This document shows positions 13,836 to 22,167 of a DNA stretch of 52,204 nt, in pieces; position 1 is the first letter of the stretch; every line of letters begins with the position of its first letter. The stretch lies in contig JABGQS010000004.1 of assembly GCA_018648645.1 (NCBI GenBank), positions 72,976 to 125,179 on the forward strand. The letters run 5' to 3'. The DNA is from Clostridia bacterium (lineage in GTDB: Bacteria > Bacillota > Clostridia > Christensenellales > SZUA-584). Position numbers and translations under genes: made by a program. The notes below the pieces were generated by a model that saw only the letters and a program-made list of their open reading frames with translations, was not told the DNA's origin and made no database searches.

Positions 13836-15091
13836 GATATTTTTCCTCCTACCGATACATAATCTTCGAAAAACTTCGGGTATGATTTGTTGATGCTGTC
13901 TTCTCCGCTGATGTCAACGATATCTGATGCGCAAAGCGCCGCCATAGAGAAAGCCATAGTGATTCTGTGATCATTGAACGAATCTATGCAGCCGCCCGAA
14001 AAAACTCCGCCTTCAATCGTTATGCCGTCGCTAAACACGGAAGTTTCAATGCCTAAATTGTTCAAATTAGTGCTGACTGACTCCAGCCTGTCCGATTCTT
14101 TTATACGAAGGCGCGCGGCGCCTGTAATCTGCGTTTCTCCTTTTGCCAGCGCAGCCGCAACTGCGATTGGCGGAACGATATCCGGGCATTGCGAAACGTC
14201 AACTTCTATGCCGCGAAGTGCCGATTTGCGTGCGCCTAAACCTTCGGTTGTGTATTCGATATTGCCGCCCATGCGACGAAGTATATCGACAATTGCTTTG
14301 TCTGGCTGGAGCGACTTCTCGCTTAGCCCGCGCACACAGATGTCGCCCGATATGCAGCCGCCGGTCAAAAAGAACGCCGCTTGAGAGAAATCGCCCTCAA
14401 CGCTCATATTTTGTGGCTTGTACTGCTGATTGCCGCGAATCGAGAACTTTTCTTTAGCGCAAACTATTTCTATTCCAAACTGCTCTAACACGCTTAGCGT
14501 GATGTCAACATAGCCTTTTGATTCAAATTTATTTACAATCGTAATGGTTGAATCAACATCCAGCATCGGCAGCGCGAACAACAAGCCTGTGATGTACTGC
14601 GAGCTGACGCTTCCGTCTATTACGTAATCCCCGCCCTTTAGCGTACCTTGCACAGTAAGCGGCAAGTTTGCTTCAGCCGGCTTTTTGTAGACGATACCGT
14701 CCTGCTCAAAAATCTCGAAGTACGCATCAATGGGTCTGATTGGTAAAAGTCCACTGCCGCTAAAGACCTTTGTGCCGCTTATCGCACATGCAATCGGTAT
14801 CAAAAACCGCATTGTTGACCCCGATTCACAGCAGTCGATTTTCGCAATGTCGTTAATATGTATACCGCCGTTGACAATAACCGTGTGATATGGTTCACCG
14901 TGCACTATTGATATTTCGCAGCCAAGCGCCTCACATGCGCGGATAGTTGCTTTGATGTCGCTGGATAAGTCAATATTAGAAATCTCGCTTTTACCGCGTG
15001 ATAACGCCGCGGCGATAATCGCCCTATGAGCTACGCTTTTTGACGGCGGTATCGTAACACTTCCGTGCATTTTTGATGGGTAAACTCTCAT
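13832..15091 (-). CDS. aroA: 3-phosphoshikimate 1-carboxyvinyltransferase (EPSP synthase)
   Basis: 419 residues. VTIPPSKSVAHRAIIAAALS carries the substrate-binding Lys-Ser, ESGSTMRFLIPIA is the PEP-site loop (glyphosate-contact region), GSVSSQYITGLLFALP, RIKESDRL and SFNDHRITMAFSMAAL follow. It joins PEP to shikimate-3-phosphate. The ESGSTMR loop has Ser where the glyphosate-sensitive LGNAGTA form has Gly-Asn-Ala, which places it with class II-type enzymes; sensitivity is not predictable by eye. Four-base overlaps with aroB and aroC. Confidence 0.96.
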   Translation of the reverse strand: MRVYPSKMHGSVTIPPSKSVAHRAIIAAALSRGKSEISNIDLSSDIKATIRACEALGCEISIVHGEPYHTVIVNGGIHINDIAKIDCCESGSTMRFLIPIACAISGTKVFSGSGLLPIRPIDAYFEIFEQDGIVYKKPAEANLPLTVQGTLKGGDYVIDGSVSSQYITGLLFALPMLDVDSTITIVNKFESKGYVDITLSVLEQFGIEIVCAKEKFSIRGNQQYKPQNMSVEGDFSQAAFFLTGGCISGDICVRGLSEKSLQPDKAIVDILRRMGGNIEYTTEGLGARKSALRGIEVDVSQCPDIVPPIAVAAALAKGETQITGAARLRIKESDRLESVSTNLNNLGIETSVFSDGITIEGGVFSGGCIDSFNDHRITMAFSMAALCASDIVDISGEDSINKSYPKFFEDYVSVGGKIS

Positions 15092-16158
15092 TTGAGATAC
15101 CTTTCTACTTCGCCGCTGTTTATTTCGTGGATATACACTTTGCCGATTTCATCAATTAATATGATATTCAGCATCTCCGCCATGTTCTTTTTATCAACAA
15201 GAATCCCCTGCAATATTTCGTCCTTGTCAAAACCGTCAATATCAGTCGGCAGTTCTTGCTTCTTCAGCACAGCGATTATACGCTCTGTTGTGCCGGGCAG
15301 CGTTTGCCCAAGCGCTTCACTTGCCGCAGTGATCGCTGCCATTCCGCGTGCTACGCCCTGCCCGTGTGTGATATGTCTGCCGCTTTTTGCGCACATGCGC
15401 TCCAGTCCATGTCCTATTGTATGCCCGTAGTTGAGTTTCATGCGCTCGCCTCTGTCAAGCTCGTCCTCAATGACAACATCGCGCTTGATTTGCAGGCATC
15501 TGACAATAAGTTCTTCGAGAATTTCTGAATTTGCGTCAATTTTATCCGATTCCTCCAGCGTTTCAAACATTTGAGCGTCCTTGATTGCAGCGTATTTAAT
15601 CAGCTCTGCCATGCCGTCAGCGAAATCCACACTTTTTAACGTTGTCAGAAAATCCATGTCAATATACACTGCGCTAGGTTGATAGAATGCTCCAACAAGG
15701 TTTTTGCCTTCGGGAATATTGATTGCAGTTTTGCCGCCAACGCTGCTGTCTATTTGGGCAAGAAGTGTTGTTGGTATCTGCACGAAGCTTATTCCTCGTA
15801 AATACGCCGAAGCCACAAAACCGGCGAGGTCGCCAACCACGCCGCCTCCGAGCGCCACTATAACATCCGCTCGATTATAGTTCTTTTGTGCAAGAAAGCT
15901 GTTGATATCGCTGAATACTGACATGCTTTTTGACTTTTCGCCTGGTTTTATGGTAATCACATCATAGCGCAAATCAAGCTCGTCAAACGTCTTGGCGATT
16001 TCTTTTTCGTAAAGCGCACTCACGTTGTCATCGGTGATGATTGCAAACTTTGATTTTGGGTACGTTTCTTTCAGCAGCCCCGCAATCTTGTGTTTGAACC
16101 CTCTGCCAACGGACAAAATATATTCATTTTGTGCTGTTTTAACTGTTATGCTTTTCAT
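15088..16158 (-). CDS. aroB: 3-dehydroquinate synthase
   Basis: 356 residues with the NAD-binding ALGGGVVGDLAGFVASAYLR, then QIPTTLLAQIDSSVGGKTAIN, the metal-ligand region MKLNYGHTIGHGLERM, and FVQIPT. It cyclises DAHP to 3-dehydroquinate using NAD and Zn or Co. Overlaps aroA and tyrA by four bases each, so translation is coupled through this part of the operon. Confidence 0.97.
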   Translation of the reverse strand: MKSITVKTAQNEYILSVGRGFKHKIAGLLKETYPKSKFAIITDDNVSALYEKEIAKTFDELDLRYDVITIKPGEKSKSMSVFSDINSFLAQKNYNRADVIVALGGGVVGDLAGFVASAYLRGISFVQIPTTLLAQIDSSVGGKTAINIPEGKNLVGAFYQPSAVYIDMDFLTTLKSVDFADGMAELIKYAAIKDAQMFETLEESDKIDANSEILEELIVRCLQIKRDVVIEDELDRGERMKLNYGHTIGHGLERMCAKSGRHITHGQGVARGMAAITAASEALGQTLPGTTERIIAVLKKQELPTDIDGFDKDEILQGILVDKKNMAEMLNIILIDEIGKVYIHEINSGEVERYLK

Positions 16159-17003
16159 TCATTCTCCTTATTGTCGCCGGACATTTCGGTTAAAAGTTTC
16201 TCCAGCTCATCTCTGTCGCCCGATTCAATTTTCTTCTCAAGCCGATTAAGCTGTTTTTTAAACTCTCCGATGCTTTGCAGCAGACTATCTTTGTTGTCGC
16301 TCATTAGCCCTGCCCAAAGCGCTGCGTTGACATCAGCTACGCGCGTTGCCGACTTATAGCTTCCGCCCGCAAATTGAGCGTTGTTGCTTTGCGGATACAT
16401 CGCCTTTAAGGCAAGCGCAATTACGTGCGGAACATGGCTAACGTGTGCAATCATCTCGTCGTGCGTTTTTGCAGCAAGCTCGACAATTTTCGTACACCCC
16501 ATAACCTCTTGCAGAACACTCACCCATTCTCTGGCTTTCTCCTGAGTTCGGACACTTGGCGTTATCACTAAAGTTGACCCAACAAACATGTCACCTTTCG
16601 AATACTTATAGCCCGTTTTCTCGCTGCCCGCCATTGGGTGAAGCGATAAAAGCTGGTGCGATTTTTCCATTGCGTCGTTTAGCTGCTGTATCATCACCGT
16701 TTTGATACCGCCGACTTCTGCGAAAACACCGTCCTGCTTCATAAGGTATGCTACCTCTTGATACAGCGGAATCACATAGATGGGCGACAAGCAGCAGAGT
16801 ACGAAATCGAACTTCGCCATATATCCGTCCAGCCTTGTAAAAGCCTCGCTGATAACGCCTTCATCTTTCGCTTTCTCCAGCGTGTCTAGGTTGTTGTCAT
16901 ATCCGTTTACGTCTGTAAACCCATAGTTTTTCAGCGCCTTTGCTATACTGCCGCCTATAAGACCAAGACCGGCAATTAGCACACGGCTGTTCTTTACATC
17001 CAT
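16155..17003 (-). CDS. tyrA: Prephenate dehydrogenase
   Basis: 282 residues. VLIAGLGLIGGSIAKALKNY is the NAD(P)-binding fold; LSLHPMAGSEKTGYKYSKGD carries the catalytic His and the prephenate contacts; AHVSHVPHVIALAL and SYKSATRVADVNAALWAGLM are family motifs. It oxidatively decarboxylates prephenate to 4-hydroxyphenylpyruvate. There is no C-terminal ACT domain, so tyrosine feedback through that route is not expected; the tail instead ends in a charged predicted helix. It starts one base after the aroF stop. Confidence 0.95.
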   Translation of the reverse strand: MDVKNSRVLIAGLGLIGGSIAKALKNYGFTDVNGYDNNLDTLEKAKDEGVISEAFTRLDGYMAKFDFVLCCLSPIYVIPLYQEVAYLMKQDGVFAEVGGIKTVMIQQLNDAMEKSHQLLSLHPMAGSEKTGYKYSKGDMFVGSTLVITPSVRTQEKAREWVSVLQEVMGCTKIVELAAKTHDEMIAHVSHVPHVIALALKAMYPQSNNAQFAGGSYKSATRVADVNAALWAGLMSDNKDSLLQSIGEFKKQLNRLEKKIESGDRDELEKLLTEMSGDNKENE

Positions 17004-17004
17004 T

Positions 17005-18021
17005 TTATAGTTCTCTCCCCATCATATCCGCTGCATCCTGCAGCTTGTGAACAAGCGCCGAGAATTTCTCCGGCAGCAGCGATTGCTTGCCGTCTGACAG
17101 CGCTTCCGAAGGGTCCTCATGAACCTCAATCATCACGCCGTCTGCGCCAACGCAAATGCCTGCCACAGCAAGCGGCTCGACCGCCCACCACAGACCAGTT
17201 GCGTGGCTTGGGTCCACTATCACCGGCAAGTGACTAAGGCGCTTTATGACCGGCACAGCGCTCAAATCCAGCGTGTTTCGCGTGAAAGTTTCGTATGTAC
17301 GGATGCCTCTCTCACAGAGTACCACATTTGGATTACCGCCCGCAACAATGTATTCGGCAGACATCAGCCATTCCTCAATTGTTGCAGACAGACCGCGCTT
17401 TAGCAGCACCGGTTTTTTCGTTTTACCAAGCTCGCTTAAAAGCACATAGTTCTGCATATTGCGTGCACCGACTTGAATCACGTCAATTTTTTCAACAAAT
17501 AGCTCGATCAATTCGACATTCGTAATTTCCGTTACTATCGGCAACCCGGTTTCAGCTCTTGCAGTTTCAAGATACTTGATTCCTTCCAAACCAAACCCTT
17601 GAAATCTGTATGGGTTAGTTCGAGGTTTAAATGCGCCTCCGCGAAGGAAATTTGCACCCGATGCTTTTACTTTTTTAGCCAATGAAACAATCTGCTCTTC
17701 ACTCTCTACAGAGCACGGGCCCGCCATCACAGCGAGCTTATTGCCGCCAATCTCAAAACCGTTGCCTTTAATAATCGTGTTGTCGGGATGGAACGCTCGG
17801 TTTACCTTTTTGTAAGGCTCCTGAATACGCATCACTTTCTTGACAACTTCCTTCTCTCGAATCGATTCGATTTCGAGCGCGACTGTGTCGCCGACCAGCC
17901 CCAGAACAGAGTAGTTTACACCATCAATTCTTTGAACTTGTATATTGTTGCTCTTCTGTAAATTATCTATAAGTTCTTGTATCTTTGCCTCGGGAGCGTC
18001 CGGTTTGAGAATAATAATCAT
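17005..18021 (-). CDS. aroF: DAHP synthase, class I beta with N-terminal regulatory domain
   Basis: 338 residues from the ATG at 18021, chosen for AAAGGA seven bases upstream over an in-frame TTG at 18045. Residues 1 to about 70 form the ferredoxin-like regulatory domain ([18 protein letters not shown]). The rest is the Thermotoga-type TIM barrel: [67 protein letters not shown] and [10 protein letters not shown]. It condenses PEP and erythrose-4-phosphate, the committed step. In relatives the N-terminal domain confers inhibition by Tyr or Phe. First structural gene of the operon, placed directly after the attenuator. Confidence 0.96.
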
Positions 18022-18059
18022 TGTTAGTGTCCTTTCGTTGTTCAAAATATAATATAAAA

Positions 18060-18318: not shown

Positions 18319-18732
18319 TCAGTTATTTAGACTTTTTAGAAAGTTTTGAGCGCGCAGCAGCATTTCGCCTGGATCGCTGACGTCATGTGCCAGCTTTTCC
18401 ATCGGGCATTTGTCGTTACCCTCACGATTTTTGATAAACGGTACTTTTATCTCATACTCAGCATCAATACCATATTGTTGAAGCACAGCAAGTGCCGCCT
18501 CCGAAATAACATTTGCGTACAAAACTTTGACACCGCAATGTGCGCATAAAAGCGCTGCGGCCTTGCCAATCACTTTGTCGGCTAAGAAAAGTTCATTTCC
18601 TCCGTTGTTCATATCGCACAGCTCAACAAGCGGCGCAATGCCTCTTTGCGTGGAGAAAAAGAATAAATCGTCATTTTTGAAAACAACTAATGCATAATCC
18701 CTAAGCTCTCGTTTTAACTGATTGCGATTCAA
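18319..18732 (-). CDS. DUF1893 domain protein
   Basis: 137 residues from a TTG at 18732, preferred because GTGGAGG lies eight bases upstream; the in-frame GTG at 18747 sits inside that site. The sequence matches DUF1893 throughout: YALVVFKNDDLFFFSTQRGI, LFLADKVIGKAAALLCAHCG, VISEAALAVLQQYGI, VPFIKNREGNDKCPMEKLAH. The family has a cytidine-deaminase-like fold with conserved Lys, Cys and Met residues in the CPME motif, and no established reaction. It overlaps the ECF S-component gene by 32 bases, implying a related role, perhaps in metabolism of the imported compound (inference). Confidence 0.83.
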   Translation of the reverse strand: MNRNQLKRELRDYALVVFKNDDLFFFSTQRGIAPLVELCDMNNGGNELFLADKVIGKAAALLCAHCGVKVLYANVISEAALAVLQQYGIDAEYEIKVPFIKNREGNDKCPMEKLAHDVSDPGEMLLRAQNFLKSLNN

Positions 18733-19255
18733 ATAACAGTCCTCCACGTTTTAGTAGTAGGTATATTGCTGGAATCAGCACAATTTGCAGCGCTATTCCC
18801 GGTAGTCCGGTGATTGTCGATGCTGCCACGGCGTCAATCGGACTCATTGGCAGCTTGAACAACCACACGCCGACGTACATAGCTAAACCGCCTGCGACTC
18901 TTCCTGCTATCATTGCAATAATTAGTTTTGGGTATATCGCCCATCTTTTGTTGTCGTATTTGATGCCAAAGCGTAAGAATCCGGCAACCGCGCCGTATAC
19001 TGCGAGCTCAAACATCATAAAAAACACTATGGGTATCGCGGGCATGCCCGCAAATGCAAAGCTGAGCAATGGCGTAATCAATCCCGCTATCATACCCTGC
19101 CAACCTCCGACAATAAATCCTATTAGAAATATACCGAGGTGCATGGGCAAAAACACACGCCCAACTGCCGGTCCTCCTATTAAATGAAATATCTGTGGCA
19201 GAAGTACGCTGATAGCAATCAGCAGTCCGGTCACTGTAAGTTTTCTTGTTCTCAT
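18701..19255 (-). CDS. ECF transporter S component
   Basis: 184 residues from the ATG at 19255 (AGGAGA five bases upstream). Predicted six-helix membrane protein: LTVTGLLIAISVLLPQI, VGRVFLPMHLGIFLIGFIVG, MIAGLITPLLSFAFAGMPAI, FFMMFELAVYGAVAGF, PKLIIAMIAGRVAGGLAMYV and a final helix ALQIVLIPAIYLLL. The MHLG...GxxGMxxGxxxPLLS..AGMP pattern is that of PF12822-type S components, which bind vitamins or related small molecules and use a shared energising module encoded elsewhere. Substrate cannot be assigned; no vitamin genes adjoin. It is preceded by a structured leader (19278-19332). Confidence 0.8.
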   Translation of the reverse strand: MRTRKLTVTGLLIAISVLLPQIFHLIGGPAVGRVFLPMHLGIFLIGFIVGGWQGMIAGLITPLLSFAFAGMPAIPIVFFMMFELAVYGAVAGFLRFGIKYDNKRWAIYPKLIIAMIAGRVAGGLAMYVGVWLFKLPMSPIDAVAASTITGLPGIALQIVLIPAIYLLLKRGGLLFESQSVKTRA

Positions 19256-19277: not shown

Positions 19278-19355
19278 AGCCGCAAAGCTATATTTTATTA
19301 GCTTTCGCAGCTATGACATGCCTTCGTGGCACAAATGAATATTACCACGATTATA
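19278..19355 (-). promoter_or_regulatory. Structured leader with terminator-like hairpin before the ECF S component
   Basis: Minus strand, 5' to 3': TATAAT (19350-19355, weak -35), then hairpin GTGCC-ACGAA-GGCAT (19318-19332), then AGCTGCGAAAGCTA (19299-19312) pairing with TAGCTTTGCGGCT (19278-19290) in a 13-bp stem with one bulged G, loop of eight, followed by TTTTTATA. The 5' arm can alternatively fold on itself as AGCT-GCGAA-AGCT, which would break the terminator. The layout is that of a small riboswitch or attenuator in a transcript starting near 19343. It does not match any class I can recall, so the ligand is unknown. Confidence 0.5.
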
Positions 19356-19526: not shown

Positions 19527-20096
19527 GTGTGCGCGCTAGATAAATTAATTGAAAAATACAAAATTGGAGATATCGAAGCAATGAGTATTCTTGTCGAAAC
19601 CTATAAGGACGAACTTTATAACCTGTGCTTTAGACTAACGTTTAATAAGCACGACGCAGAGGACTTGTTTCAGCAAACTTGGATCAAGGCTACTAAAAAT
19701 GCTACAAAATTTAAAGATACGGCATTTAGAGCGTGGCTGTTCAAAATTTGCGTGAACCAACATAAGGACAACTATCGACAGTTGATGAGACGAAAGAAGT
19801 TCCTTAAAGAGGACTTTAAGACCACGTATGCCAAGGATTATGTATTGGTGGTGTCAAACCGGGGAGAATCAGTAGAACAGGAAGTAGAAAAAAAGCATAT
19901 TCAAGCGCTACTTATATCTAATATTGATAAACTGCCCGAAAAACAAAAGATTCCTGTTGTGCTTCATTATTATCAACAAATGAAGTATAGCGAAATCGCC
20001 AATACACTCGACATTCCGGAAGGCACGGTTAAGTCTCGAATTAACGCAGCTAAGAAAAAGCTGAAAAGTGTAATGGAAGGTGAATTGTATGTTTGA
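19527..20096 (+). CDS. ECF subfamily RNA polymerase sigma factor
   Basis: 189 residues from a GTG start (GAGGAG six bases upstream). Region 2: LVETYKDELYNLCFRLTFNK, HDAEDLFQQTWIKATKNATK and FRAWLFKICVNQHKD (core binding and -10 recognition). Region 4: NIDKLPEKQKIPVVLHYYQQ, MKYSEIANTLDIPEGTVKSR, INAAKKKLK (-35 recognition helix-turn-helix). No extra domains. The stop overlaps the start of the membrane anti-sigma gene by eight bases, the usual ECF/anti-sigma coupling. Cell-surface signals are the expected input, given the partner's extracellular domains. Confidence 0.93.
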   Translation: MCALDKLIEKYKIGDIEAMSILVETYKDELYNLCFRLTFNKHDAEDLFQQTWIKATKNATKFKDTAFRAWLFKICVNQHKDNYRQLMRRKKFLKEDFKTTYAKDYVLVVSNRGESVEQEVEKKHIQALLISNIDKLPEKQKIPVVLHYYQQMKYSEIANTLDIPEGTVKSRINAAKKKLKSVMEGELYV

Positions 20097-22167
20097 TATT
20101 GATAAATATTTGGACGATATGAGAATAAAGGAATTTGAACCGTCAGAATCTCTCGTTCAAAAAACGAAAAAAGAATGCGAAAAAAATATGAAACCGCAAA
20201 AAGCACAACGCAGGTATCACAAGCAGACGAGCAGAAAATTCGGCAAGGGCGCGCTTATCGCAATCCCTGCTGCGGCGATGCTGCTTGTTGGAGTGTTTCT
20301 TGGGGCGTTTCTATTTGGAGAGAAAACAGACCCGTCTGTCGTGGCGTTTTATACGGTAGATATTAATCCGAGCGTCTGTGTGAATGTTGACGAAAACGAG
20401 ATTGTGCAAAGCGTAAAGTCGCAAAACGAGGACGCAGAAGCGCTGCTCAAAACCATCGATTGTGTTGGGCTTTCTGTGCCCGAAGCAGTTGCGAAGATTA
20501 TCGAAGCAGCTAAGCAAGCCGGGTTCCTTGACGGCGATCAGAAGTATGTGCTGATTGGACGGTTTGGAGAAGGCAACGAGCAAGCGCTTAGCGATTTGCA
20601 GACGCTCCTCGATACTAAGCTTGGTGATTTGATTGATTTGCTGATTGTCAGCGGGTCGCTTGAGGATAAGCTTAATGCGGATGGTTTGCATGTGTCTGCC
20701 GGTTTGCTGATACTAAGCCAAATGGCTGACGGCGTAGAGATCACCGGTGATGATAAAGTTGCCGATGTGGTTGACGAGGTAAACAACACCAACCAAGAGA
20801 AATACCTTGCGCCAACTTTGGAAGCCGGAGCAAACAGCGAAGGTGTTGTGCTTGAATGGAATGAGCTTGACTTTCAGAAAATGGGCTATACCGGCAAGGT
20901 CAGCTATCATATCATGGCAAGCAACAGCGAGCTGGGTATTAAGAACTTTGACGCTGTAAAAATTGGAAAACTGGACTTCATGTCTACCGATGATCAGCCT
21001 ACGAGATATTTCATAGACGTGGAAAAATGCGGTGTGAACGGCGAGAAGTATAAGTACTACGGTATTTACGCGGTGTATTCGGGCGACATATATGTGCAGA
21101 GCAACGTTGTTAAGGCTATTGTGCCGGGTCCCGAAGAGTCTCCGAAGCCTTCCCCGTCAACATCGCCCGAACCATCAGAAACACCTGCGCCCGAGCCTGC
21201 AGAAGGTTTGGTAAGCGGCTATGTTGATGGCGAGTTTGTGAAATTGAGCTGGGAGAAAAACTCAAAAGACGGTTTCACAGGGTACAAGATTGTTGCATCC
21301 AAGACGAACGAGAATCCTTCGTATCCCGAAGATGGGTATCTGAAGTATATTACAAACGAGGGTACGACCAGCAAGTCGCTTTACGAAGGATATGGCGGTC
21401 TTAAAGCTAACACGTACTACTACTTTAGCGTGACCTACCTTTACAGCGACGGCAGCAAGATTATCGGTAACGCAGTTTGGCTAAAGGTACCTGAAAAAGA
21501 GGAAGAACCCGATCCAACTGACCCGCCGAGCGGCGATATGGTAGCTACTACAATACGCGGCGAGATGGACGGAAGTGCGGTTTACGTAAGCTGGGACAAA
21601 ATTGAGCATGATCATTTTGCCGGATACAAGGTAGTATACTCATACTTAGACTCGACACCGGTGTACGGCGAATCCAACGTCTACTATACGTATATTACGG
21701 ATCCAAACGTCAACAGCAAGGTATACAGTGACATCACAGCGCTCAAAGACTATTCATCCGGCGCAACGTGCTACTTCTCGGTGACTGTGCTGTACAACGA
21801 TCCAAGCACAAAAGTTGCGGGCAACGTGATTTCATTTGTAGCACCAGAGTCGGTACCGTATCCATCGACGAATATCAGCGTTTCGCTGAGCGGTAACAAC
21901 GTTGCGACGAGTTGGACAGAAATTACTGACGAGCGGCTGCAAGGATACAAAGTCGTTGCTTCCTTCACGGATTCATCACCAAGCTATCCCGAAAATGGGT
22001 ATGCTACGTGGATTACCGATACAACTGTAACCGGCTATACTATTCTGGAAAGTTACATCAAATCACTTGACGGATATGAACCAGGTGCAACGTGCTACTT
22101 TGCAATCACGGCAGTATACGACGGTAAAAAAGTGACCGGAGATGCGGATTCACTGGTTTACCCTTAG
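20089..22167 (+). CDS. RsgI-like transmembrane anti-sigma factor with fibronectin III-like repeats
   Basis: 692 residues from the ATG at 20089 (AAGG eight bases upstream; a GTG at 20080 is possible). Residues 1-53 are cytoplasmic and basic, 54-76 span the membrane, and 86 to about 165 match the RsgI middle domain (AFYTVDINPSVCVNVDENEI, then LSVPEAVAKIIEAAKQAGFL). After a further beta-rich segment (240-345) comes a Pro/Ser/Glu linker (346-372) and three repeats of about 100 residues (373-467, 484-586, 594-692), each with a W near the start (LSWEK, VSWDK, TSWTE), GYK(V/I)V, YIT/WIT and (Y/C)YF(S/A)(V/I)T, i.e. fibronectin III-like modules. RsgI normally partners SigI; here the partner is an ECF factor. 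The repeats suggest binding of wall or surface polymers. Confidence 0.85.
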   Translation: MFDIDKYLDDMRIKEFEPSESLVQKTKKECEKNMKPQKAQRRYHKQTSRKFGKGALIAIPAAAMLLVGVFLGAFLFGEKTDPSVVAFYTVDINPSVCVNVDENEIVQSVKSQNEDAEALLKTIDCVGLSVPEAVAKIIEAAKQAGFLDGDQKYVLIGRFGEGNEQALSDLQTLLDTKLGDLIDLLIVSGSLEDKLNADGLHVSAGLLILSQMADGVEITGDDKVADVVDEVNNTNQEKYLAPTLEAGANSEGVVLEWNELDFQKMGYTGKVSYHIMASNSELGIKNFDAVKIGKLDFMSTDDQPTRYFIDVEKCGVNGEKYKYYGIYAVYSGDIYVQSNVVKAIVPGPEESPKPSPSTSPEPSETPAPEPAEGLVSGYVDGEFVKLSWEKNSKDGFTGYKIVASKTNENPSYPEDGYLKYITNEGTTSKSLYEGYGGLKANTYYYFSVTYLYSDGSKIIGNAVWLKVPEKEEEPDPTDPPSGDMVATTIRGEMDGSAVYVSWDKIEHDHFAGYKVVYSYLDSTPVYGESNVYYTYITDPNVNSKVYSDITALKDYSSGATCYFSVTVLYNDPSTKVAGNVISFVAPESVPYPSTNISVSLSGNNVATSWTEITDERLQGYKVVASFTDSSPSYPENGYATWITDTTVTGYTILESYIKSLDGYEPGATCYFAITAVYDGKKVTGDADSLVYP

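Follow-up and report, generated by a model that had tools for sequence, protein, structure and literature searches.

The S-component gene of the window and its leader

The window, that is, the whole 52,204-nucleotide stretch of DNA analysed in this study, carries on its minus strand a gene for an ECF transporter S component (PF12822) at 18701-19255. The gene product scored 57.7 bits against the Pfam cut-off of 30.7, and the alignment and the tree place it in a clade with the motif LLPQIFHLIGG. Its end is overlapped by a gene for a DUF1893/TM1506 protein (18319-18747, minus strand; PF08973, 123.9 bits), which is probably co-transcribed with it. Downstream of this pair, the aromatic amino-acid genes for DAHP synthase, prephenate dehydrogenase and 3-dehydroquinate synthase occupy 15088-18045 of the same strand. 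Divergent from the S gene, the plus strand at 19527-22167 encodes a SigW-like ECF sigma factor and then an RsgI-type anti-sigma protein whose C-terminal part is long. The window genome has other PF12822 genes, and the leaders of two of them (L001 and L004) resemble FMN and cobalamin riboswitches by eye. A PDB search for relatives of the window S component found none; with the S component of locus L190, the search gave RibU at E 0.058.

The leader examined here lies in the gap between the S gene, its putative regulated gene, and the divergent sigma factor gene. On the minus strand we recognised by eye a putative sigma-70 promoter (19367-19339) with 8 of the 12 consensus bases, in which TTGCAA (19367-19362) and TAATAT (19344-19339) are separated by a 17-nt spacer. 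The transcript is expected to start near 19333, i.e. at the first hairpin; the interval of the initial annotation, 19278-19355, thus takes in the -10 region of this promoter. A promoter scan did not list the TTGCAA-17-TAATAT site at 19367-19339. It listed a minus-strand site inside the leader at 19319-19292 with 9 of 12 bases, where 2.6 sites were expected by chance in the region; this site, if used as a promoter, would bypass the hairpins.

Two small hairpins with ACGAA and GCGAA loops had been noticed in the initial annotation, and both were confirmed on the minus strand. Hairpin 1 (P1; 19333-19317) reads TGTGCC-ACGAA-GGCATG, and hairpin 2 (P2, the putative antiterminator; 19313-19299) reads TAGCT-GCGAA-AGCTA with a T-A closing pair. 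They are followed by a predicted intrinsic terminator (19312-19274), whose 13 pairs with one bulged base are formed by arms at 19312-19278 and whose T-run lies at 19278-19274, and by the ribosome-binding site AGGAGA (19266-19261). The 13-bp terminator had been described as sharing its 5' arm with the second hairpin. The sharing and the number of pairs held, but the overlap is fuller than was said, because every base of hairpin 2 but the first sits inside that arm. Hairpin 2 and the terminator are therefore mutually exclusive, and in the predicted fold 13 nt of hairpin 2 are paired within the terminator.

Folding gave -22.5 kcal/mol for hairpin 1 plus the terminator, compared with -10.8 for the two-hairpin state. 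The stretch 19345-19278 folded with a z-score of -3.36, which was equalled by 2 of 200 shuffles, and the two-hairpin part alone (19345-19296) was of ordinary stability (z -1.47, equalled by 18 of 200). In the predicted folds of two longer stretches, 19345-19265 and 19355-19278, hairpin 1 was replaced by other pairs. A simple terminator scan of the window listed no terminator at 19312-19274. The pair of hairpins itself is unusual: two [AG][CT]GAA hairpins of at least 5 pairs within a span of 60 nt occurred in none of 5000 dinucleotide shuffles of the 300-nt window leader.

Leaders with tandem A(N)GAA hairpins

Two genomes of the same family have homologues of the window S component that are 37% and 35% identical to it. 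Their leaders, L010 and L011, have the same layout as the window leader with unrelated stems, and in each the terminator extends over the second hairpin. The former contains CGGC-ACGAG-GCCG and GATACC-ATGAA-GGTATC, and the latter contains GCCGGC-ATGAA-GCCGGC and AATACC-ATGAA-GGTATT. We searched 200 genomes of the order for the S component and found a match in 108. From these, 92 leaders were taken, 60 of them fetched by place; the set analysed comprised the 91 of usable length, the window included, with L085 (24 nt) and the weakest matches left out.

The initial annotation had named the conservation of loops and stems in homologous leaders as the test of its own proposal. Of the 91 S-gene leaders, 28 contained one or more C-A(N)GAA-G hairpins of at least 5 pairs, against a mean of 0.33 and a maximum of 2 in 100 dinucleotide shuffles, and matches to covariance models were found elsewhere, so the loops and stems are conserved in other leaders. 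Two or more such hairpins occurred in 15 of the 91 leaders and in none of the 100 shuffles, and five control loop sets were found in only 1-3 leaders each.

Three covariance models were built: R1 from 17 leaders, R2 from 20, and R3 from 58 aligned matches. Among the alignments, A1 (misaligned) and A3 (three shifted rows) were dropped, A4 was rebuilt without L108, L100 and L040, and A5 has 58 rows. In A5, 94.8% of the cells were paired, compared with at most 44.4% in slid controls, and 155 cells were double-changed, compared with 45.4 in shuffles; the observed value for pairs changed on both sides was reached by 59 of 500 shuffles. The pairing in A5 is partly circular, because leaders with such hairpins were chosen as the seed and A5 was fitted to the model. 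For this reason we regard the matches that the models found elsewhere as the weightier evidence.

These matches were obtained in several scans, whose E-values are rough and are stated per search or per genome. With R1, 67 of 297 genomes of the order had a match at E 0.1 or better. Among the best 30 loci, an S homologue followed directly in 22, of which 16 belonged to the training set; 2 loci preceded other genes of transport or regulation, and 6 were judged to be noise. With R2, 29 of 391 genomes of the taxonomic class had a match at E 0.01; among the 28 new loci, 20 lay before an S component, 1 before a methyltransferase (by eye) followed by NikB-type genes, and 7 were noise. The R2 scan of 398 genomes of the phylum gave 19 loci (7 S, 4 nickel-type and 8 noise). 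Pooling these two scans, 27 of the 47 new loci stood before an S component and 5 before nickel-type genes, and 15 were judged coding or chance. In 398 relatives of genome G832, R3 gave 27 matches in 25 genomes at E 0.002; 15 were new, and 13 of these were leader-like. When R3 was run with sensitive filters on 40 genomes, nearly all of them chosen for earlier matches, 39 matched, 32 once and 7 twice, and some of the second matches were due to chance. Loci judged coding or chance were L152, L156-L160, L181, L183-L188, L195, L199-L203, L205, L207, L225 and L234 (the same place as L200) and, from the sensitive scan, L216, L217, L218 and L220. The membership of L236 is doubtful. R3 missed the leader of genome G007 (L240), which was counted as a carrier by eye.

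The hairpins of the class are mostly closed by a C-G pair and have A(N)GAA loops. They occur in two to four copies, and we call the last one P2. Among 58 rows, the P1 loops were AGAA (28), five-base ANGAA (15), CGAA (7), TGAA (4) and others (4), and the P2 loops were ATGAA (36), other ANGAA (12) and the rest (10). An optional, possibly flipped-out loop base would unite the AGAA and ANGAA forms. The closing pair was C-G in 54 of 58 P1 and 43 of 58 P2 hairpins, and the linker between P1 and P2 was 18-59 nt long (median 30). Three hairpins were found in L049, L058 and L061, and four, by eye, in L221. The last case, shared by L221 and L209 (G701), has three head-to-tail ATGAA-loop hairpins and a fourth at the terminator, before CbiM, and can be seen by eye as a natural variant of copy number. 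A loose promoter-like pattern, counted without a chance control, stood upstream of 46 of 59 leaders.

We folded the terminator in 60 leaders (the 58 rows of A5, the window and L066). In 40 of them it takes at least 4 nt of P2, and in these 40 the mean terminator fold was -19.0 kcal/mol compared with -4.1 for P2 alone. In 14 of the 60 the folded terminator spares P2, and in 6 none was found. In L063 and L101 a CTTCTCCC/GGGAGAAG helix lies over the ribosome-binding site instead, which by eye seems to be an anti-Shine-Dalgarno arrangement. We also tried mismatched P2/terminator-arm duplexes as a covariation test. It was weak because the P2 stems are too alike, and a leader's own duplex was better than the foreign mean in only 35 of 53 cases. 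It might be supposed that these leaders contain an ordinary unregulated terminator or an mRNA 5' stabiliser, as any hairpin followed by T's can act in that way. We consider this extremely unlikely, since leaders from the order up to the phylum keep the loop sequence, and P2 and the terminator exclude each other in those 40 leaders.

No relevant Rfam family was found for these RNAs. In the initial annotation the leader was unassigned, and a hit to a known Rfam class was to refute its proposal. The window leader had no match at the Rfam thresholds, the guanidine-II and NiCo models being among those unmatched. For 16 class leaders at E up to 5 there was no relevant family, only three weak eukaryotic matches, and for 10 further loci at gathering scores again no relevant family, with one fluoride riboswitch elsewhere in L235. 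The guanidine-II (mini-ykkC) riboswitch, which we take to be RF01068, resembles the class in its tandem similar stem-loops and its on-type logic. In that riboswitch both stem-loops carry ACGR tetraloops (PMC5486947). It had already been remarked of the window that such loops are lacking, and this was borne out: the window loops are pentaloops, and ACGR was found in 0 of 58 rows in either hairpin. Because ACGR is absent, the C-G/G-C loop-loop pairing of guanidine-II is impossible in the AGAA loops of the class. The genes are also different, and guanidine-II was rejected because it gave no Rfam match and its loop definition fails. Another known RNA, the NiCo (czcD) riboswitch, is a junction aptamer for heavy-metal efflux genes. 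It has the nickel/cobalt theme in common with the class, which unlike it stands before uptake and maturation genes, and with no Rfam match it too was rejected. Among the entries listed from the open-access full-text literature, and in Rfam 15, we found no such RNA class named; this negative is provisional. Judging from the sequences, the tandem A(N)GAA hairpins look like an apparently undescribed family of RNA switches.

The window leader probably belongs to this class. In the 52-kb window it was the only match to R3 (19.2 bits, E 0.0023). It was also the best match (E 0.0041) in a set of 28 loci, which consisted of the 8 PF12822 loci of the window genome (its own included), 18 S loci without a recognised RNA, L239 and L240. 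Hairpin 1 fits the definition of a C-G-closed A(N)GAA hairpin exactly, and it shares 16 of 17 letters (GTGCCACGAAGGCATG) with P2 of locus L193. Hairpin 2 has the loop GCGAA closed by T-A, and the same loop recurs in the first hairpin of locus L107. The last hairpin is exclusive with the terminator, as in most leaders of the class. In genome G146 (L066/L239), a similar close-set pair stands before another S gene with DUF3842 upstream; R3 scored it only at E 0.066, and its first stem has only 3 pairs by eye.

These facts have to be set against the possibility that the class is real but the window leader is a mere look-alike, in which a terminator lies between divergent genes and two GAA-loop hairpins have arisen by chance. 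The R3 score is weak; the genome-wide R3 search at E 0.05 did not find the window copy, and the window genome was the sole non-matching one among the 40 of the sensitive scan. R2 and R3 place hairpin 1 at the P2 of the model, with R3 putting a doubtful upstream stem at P1, and hairpin 1 is lost in the longer folds. In the tree, the window S component groups with 16 relatives lacking the RNA (1 carrier in 17 rows, support 96/88); 11 of these come from named genomes, and no leader match to R3 was found. Nevertheless, a look-alike is unlikely, as such a hairpin pair was absent from all 5000 shuffles, the strand, the position, the terminator overlap and the gene family are all right, 16 letters of hairpin 1 agree with P2 of L193, and the pair of G146 exists.

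The pairing of PF12822 with DUF1893, whose leaders had been put forward as the home of the RNA, was rejected. None of the 14 S loci from named genomes (11 with DUF1893) had the RNA before the gene, and the best R3 match, at E 0.13, lay elsewhere in L032.

Genes behind the RNA and the nature of the signal

In most cases the RNA of the class precedes a gene for an ECF S component (PF12822), and such genes often have DUF3842 upstream of them and a kinase-like gene on the downstream side. LarE, LarB, LarC and CooT are nickel proteins. In L211 (G832) the RNA is followed by two small ORFs and then by LarE, LarB and LarC, all over curated cut-offs. In L228 it is followed by DUF3842, CooT (94.3 bits) and, by eye, a CbiM-type ORF, and in L209 and L212 it stands before CbiM/NikM (PF01891). 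The best model for L210, L208 and L229 was the nickel ABC permease Opp2B/NikB, over the cut-off in L210 only; a gene of this permease type was seen by eye in L238. An OppD/NikD-type ATPase was found below the cut-offs in L223 and likewise by eye in L224, a methyltransferase-like protein followed by an SBP_bac_5 protein in L230, and a NicO match of 23.4 bits, below the cut-off of 27.7, in L226. L213 encodes a metal-sensing repressor (PF02583) that has a His-rich N-terminus and whose gene is divergent from CbiM, and L214 has EcfA heading the S operon. Among the loci of less clear bearing (L215, L219, L231-L233 and L237), L231, and by eye L237, have a Peripla_BP_2 protein. L222 has a TrmO-type protein and an ATPase, and L235 an ATPase; we read both ATPases as CooC-like, where the models give only the CbiA/MinD type.

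Several other loci deserve mention. The first small ORF of the RNA-led LarEBC operon (L211:339-746), which has no Pfam match, is a candidate nickel gene, and one of the two small ORFs of that operon is seen by eye again behind a second RNA copy (L215:4278-4784, G644). At L219:1449-5455 (G959), a CobN-type chelatase with a periplasmic binding protein lies behind a weak second match (E 0.029) that is RNA-like by eye; this context hints at a cobalt or tetrapyrrole use of the same signal. In L232 and L233 (G931 and G1016) the class RNA precedes an ABC-2 type transporter operon.

Taken together, the gene set of the class, as read from sequence, indicates that the signal reports nickel status, i.e. 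shortage or need, although CbiM, CobN and the PF02583 repressor could mean cobalt as much as nickel. A vitamin-type ligand, which had been suggested for the window, is doubtful because the carriers are another S-component clade and nickel genes. NikR, a DNA-binding repressor, has a comparable regulon of Nik transporters and nickel enzymes; the class differs from it in being an RNA leader. NikR-independent nickel control has been suspected in the field (PMC2667541).

We think it likely that a conserved cis-regulatory RNA class has a compact, diverged copy in the window leader, and that in this class a conditional transcription terminator is opened by a factor binding the loops, with nickel status as the signal. 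By default, the more stable terminator would form and transcription would stop; that is, the default state should be off because folding favours the terminator. When nickel status, shortage or need, is signalled to the leader, the factor on the loops would hold P2, the terminator would be blocked, and the S gene and its partner would be transcribed. The window leader had originally been called a compact riboswitch. The compact switch stands, with a terminator exclusive with hairpin 2, but the word riboswitch goes too far, since the on/off logic would suit a protein acting in trans equally well or better.

As a riboswitch in the strict sense, the loops would bind a small ligand (Ni2+, the nickel-pincer nucleotide or a precursor) and either hold P2 to turn the genes on or act under shortage by another route. 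In 40 regions no recurrent regulator gene was seen next to the RNA, the expression platforms seem by eye to vary, and guanidine-II binds its ligand with two tiny stem-loops (PMC5486947), so we regard such direct sensing as possible, if somewhat doubtful. Holding P2 means ON, which is the wrong sign for feedback on uptake or biosynthesis, and two to four hairpins are more like protein sites. LarC was present in 10 of 50 genomes taken as carriers (four of the 50, G007, G036, G125 and G149, being counted as carriers by eye only), compared with 12 of 30 without an RNA match. A pincer nucleotide would therefore have to be imported in the other 40, and the cell-made nucleotide was rejected as a universal ligand.

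The nearest protein-based model is that of the ANTAR targets of EutV, NasR and AmiR, where two small hairpins have conserved loop residues and closing pairs, P2 and the terminator are exclusive, and the default is off. In these targets, both hairpins have hexaloops with A1 and G4, and P2 excludes the terminator (PMC3369931). If an ANTAR response regulator were the factor, its dimer would bind both loops and hold P2 in the manner of EutV. The architecture is the same, the loops agree with ANTAR hexaloops in having A in the first and G in the third-last position, and an ANTAR gene is present in the window genome. However, the class loops are mostly of 4-5 nt with A(N)GAA sequences, and a six-base A..G.. 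loop occurred in 1 of 58 P1 and 1 of 58 P2 hairpins. The linker is long and variable (18-59 nt), compared with 5-12 nt in eut, where 14 nt already failed (PMC3369931), and up to four hairpins and nickel genes are found. Moreover, in a check of six genomes with an RNA match at E 1e-4 or better (G002, G003, G005, G008, G016 and G019), the carriers G005 and G016 had no ANTAR match at E 0.001. An ANTAR protein is thus very unlikely, and we rejected it as the factor because of these two genomes and the different loops and linkers.

Returning to the opened-terminator reading, we lean slightly toward a nickel-status RNA-binding protein that works like the ANTAR antiterminators, and less toward an RNA that itself senses Ni2+ or a nickel cofactor. 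An apo-protein antiterminator would fit the sign best, given that uptake genes are expected to be expressed under nickel shortage; for an RNA that senses directly, the coupling would have to be reversed or the signal to be one of shortage. If this is true, the class would be a regulatory RNA with a coherent nickel gene set, and would offer a short RNA in which to seek either a riboswitch for nickel or a new nickel regulator that binds RNA.

The S operon and its kinase-like partner

A recurrent gene order was seen in L241-L280: DUF3842, the RNA, the S component, and a protein with an unknown N-terminal domain and a P-loop-kinase-like C-terminal half (for example, L244:10687-11739 and L247:9352-9768). 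The kinase-like gene was within 2.5 kb downstream of the S gene in 27, and DUF3842 within 1.5 kb of it in 20, of the 40 regions taken as RNA-controlled. The support for calling it a kinase is modest: the Pfam uridine-kinase family was over the cut-off in 2 of 6 kinase-like copies tested, and NCBIfam kinase models matched all 4 copies compared with them, each below the cut-offs. By sequence, the relatives of the kinase-like protein in the PDB included uridine kinase (E 8.1e-6) and nicotinamide riboside kinase 1 (E 1.4e-4).

DUF3842 is also found in L228, where it separates the RNA from CooT, and in L238, where it lies upstream of the NikB-type operon; this ties the S gene to nickel. Nickel may thus be the business of the S component, by guilt by association. 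As a kinase adjoins the importer, a nucleoside-like substrate is suggested for the S component, and a nickel-pincer nucleoside would fit both the nickel theme and the kinase-importer pair.

We tentatively speculate further, on a reading that we hold to be rather doubtful, that the tandem A(N)GAA hairpins are a NikR-independent nickel regulator in many Bacillota-type bacteria. They would sense nickel or the nickel-pincer cofactor directly or via a protein and gate nickel uptake, LarEBC and CooT, while the S component and its NRK/uridine-kinase-like partner would serve the salvage of a nickel-related nucleoside by import and phosphorylation to the nickel-pincer nucleotide. Such a salvage route would explain why LarC is absent from 40 of the 50 genomes taken as carriers. 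If this is the case, there would be a testable pathway for the orphan PF12822 clade, the kinase-like partner, DUF3842 and perhaps DUF1893.

Finally, the gene clusters present in at least 6 of the 40 regions were the S component, the kinase-like gene, DUF3842, a MATE-like transporter and an ABC ATPase, the last two being named by eye.
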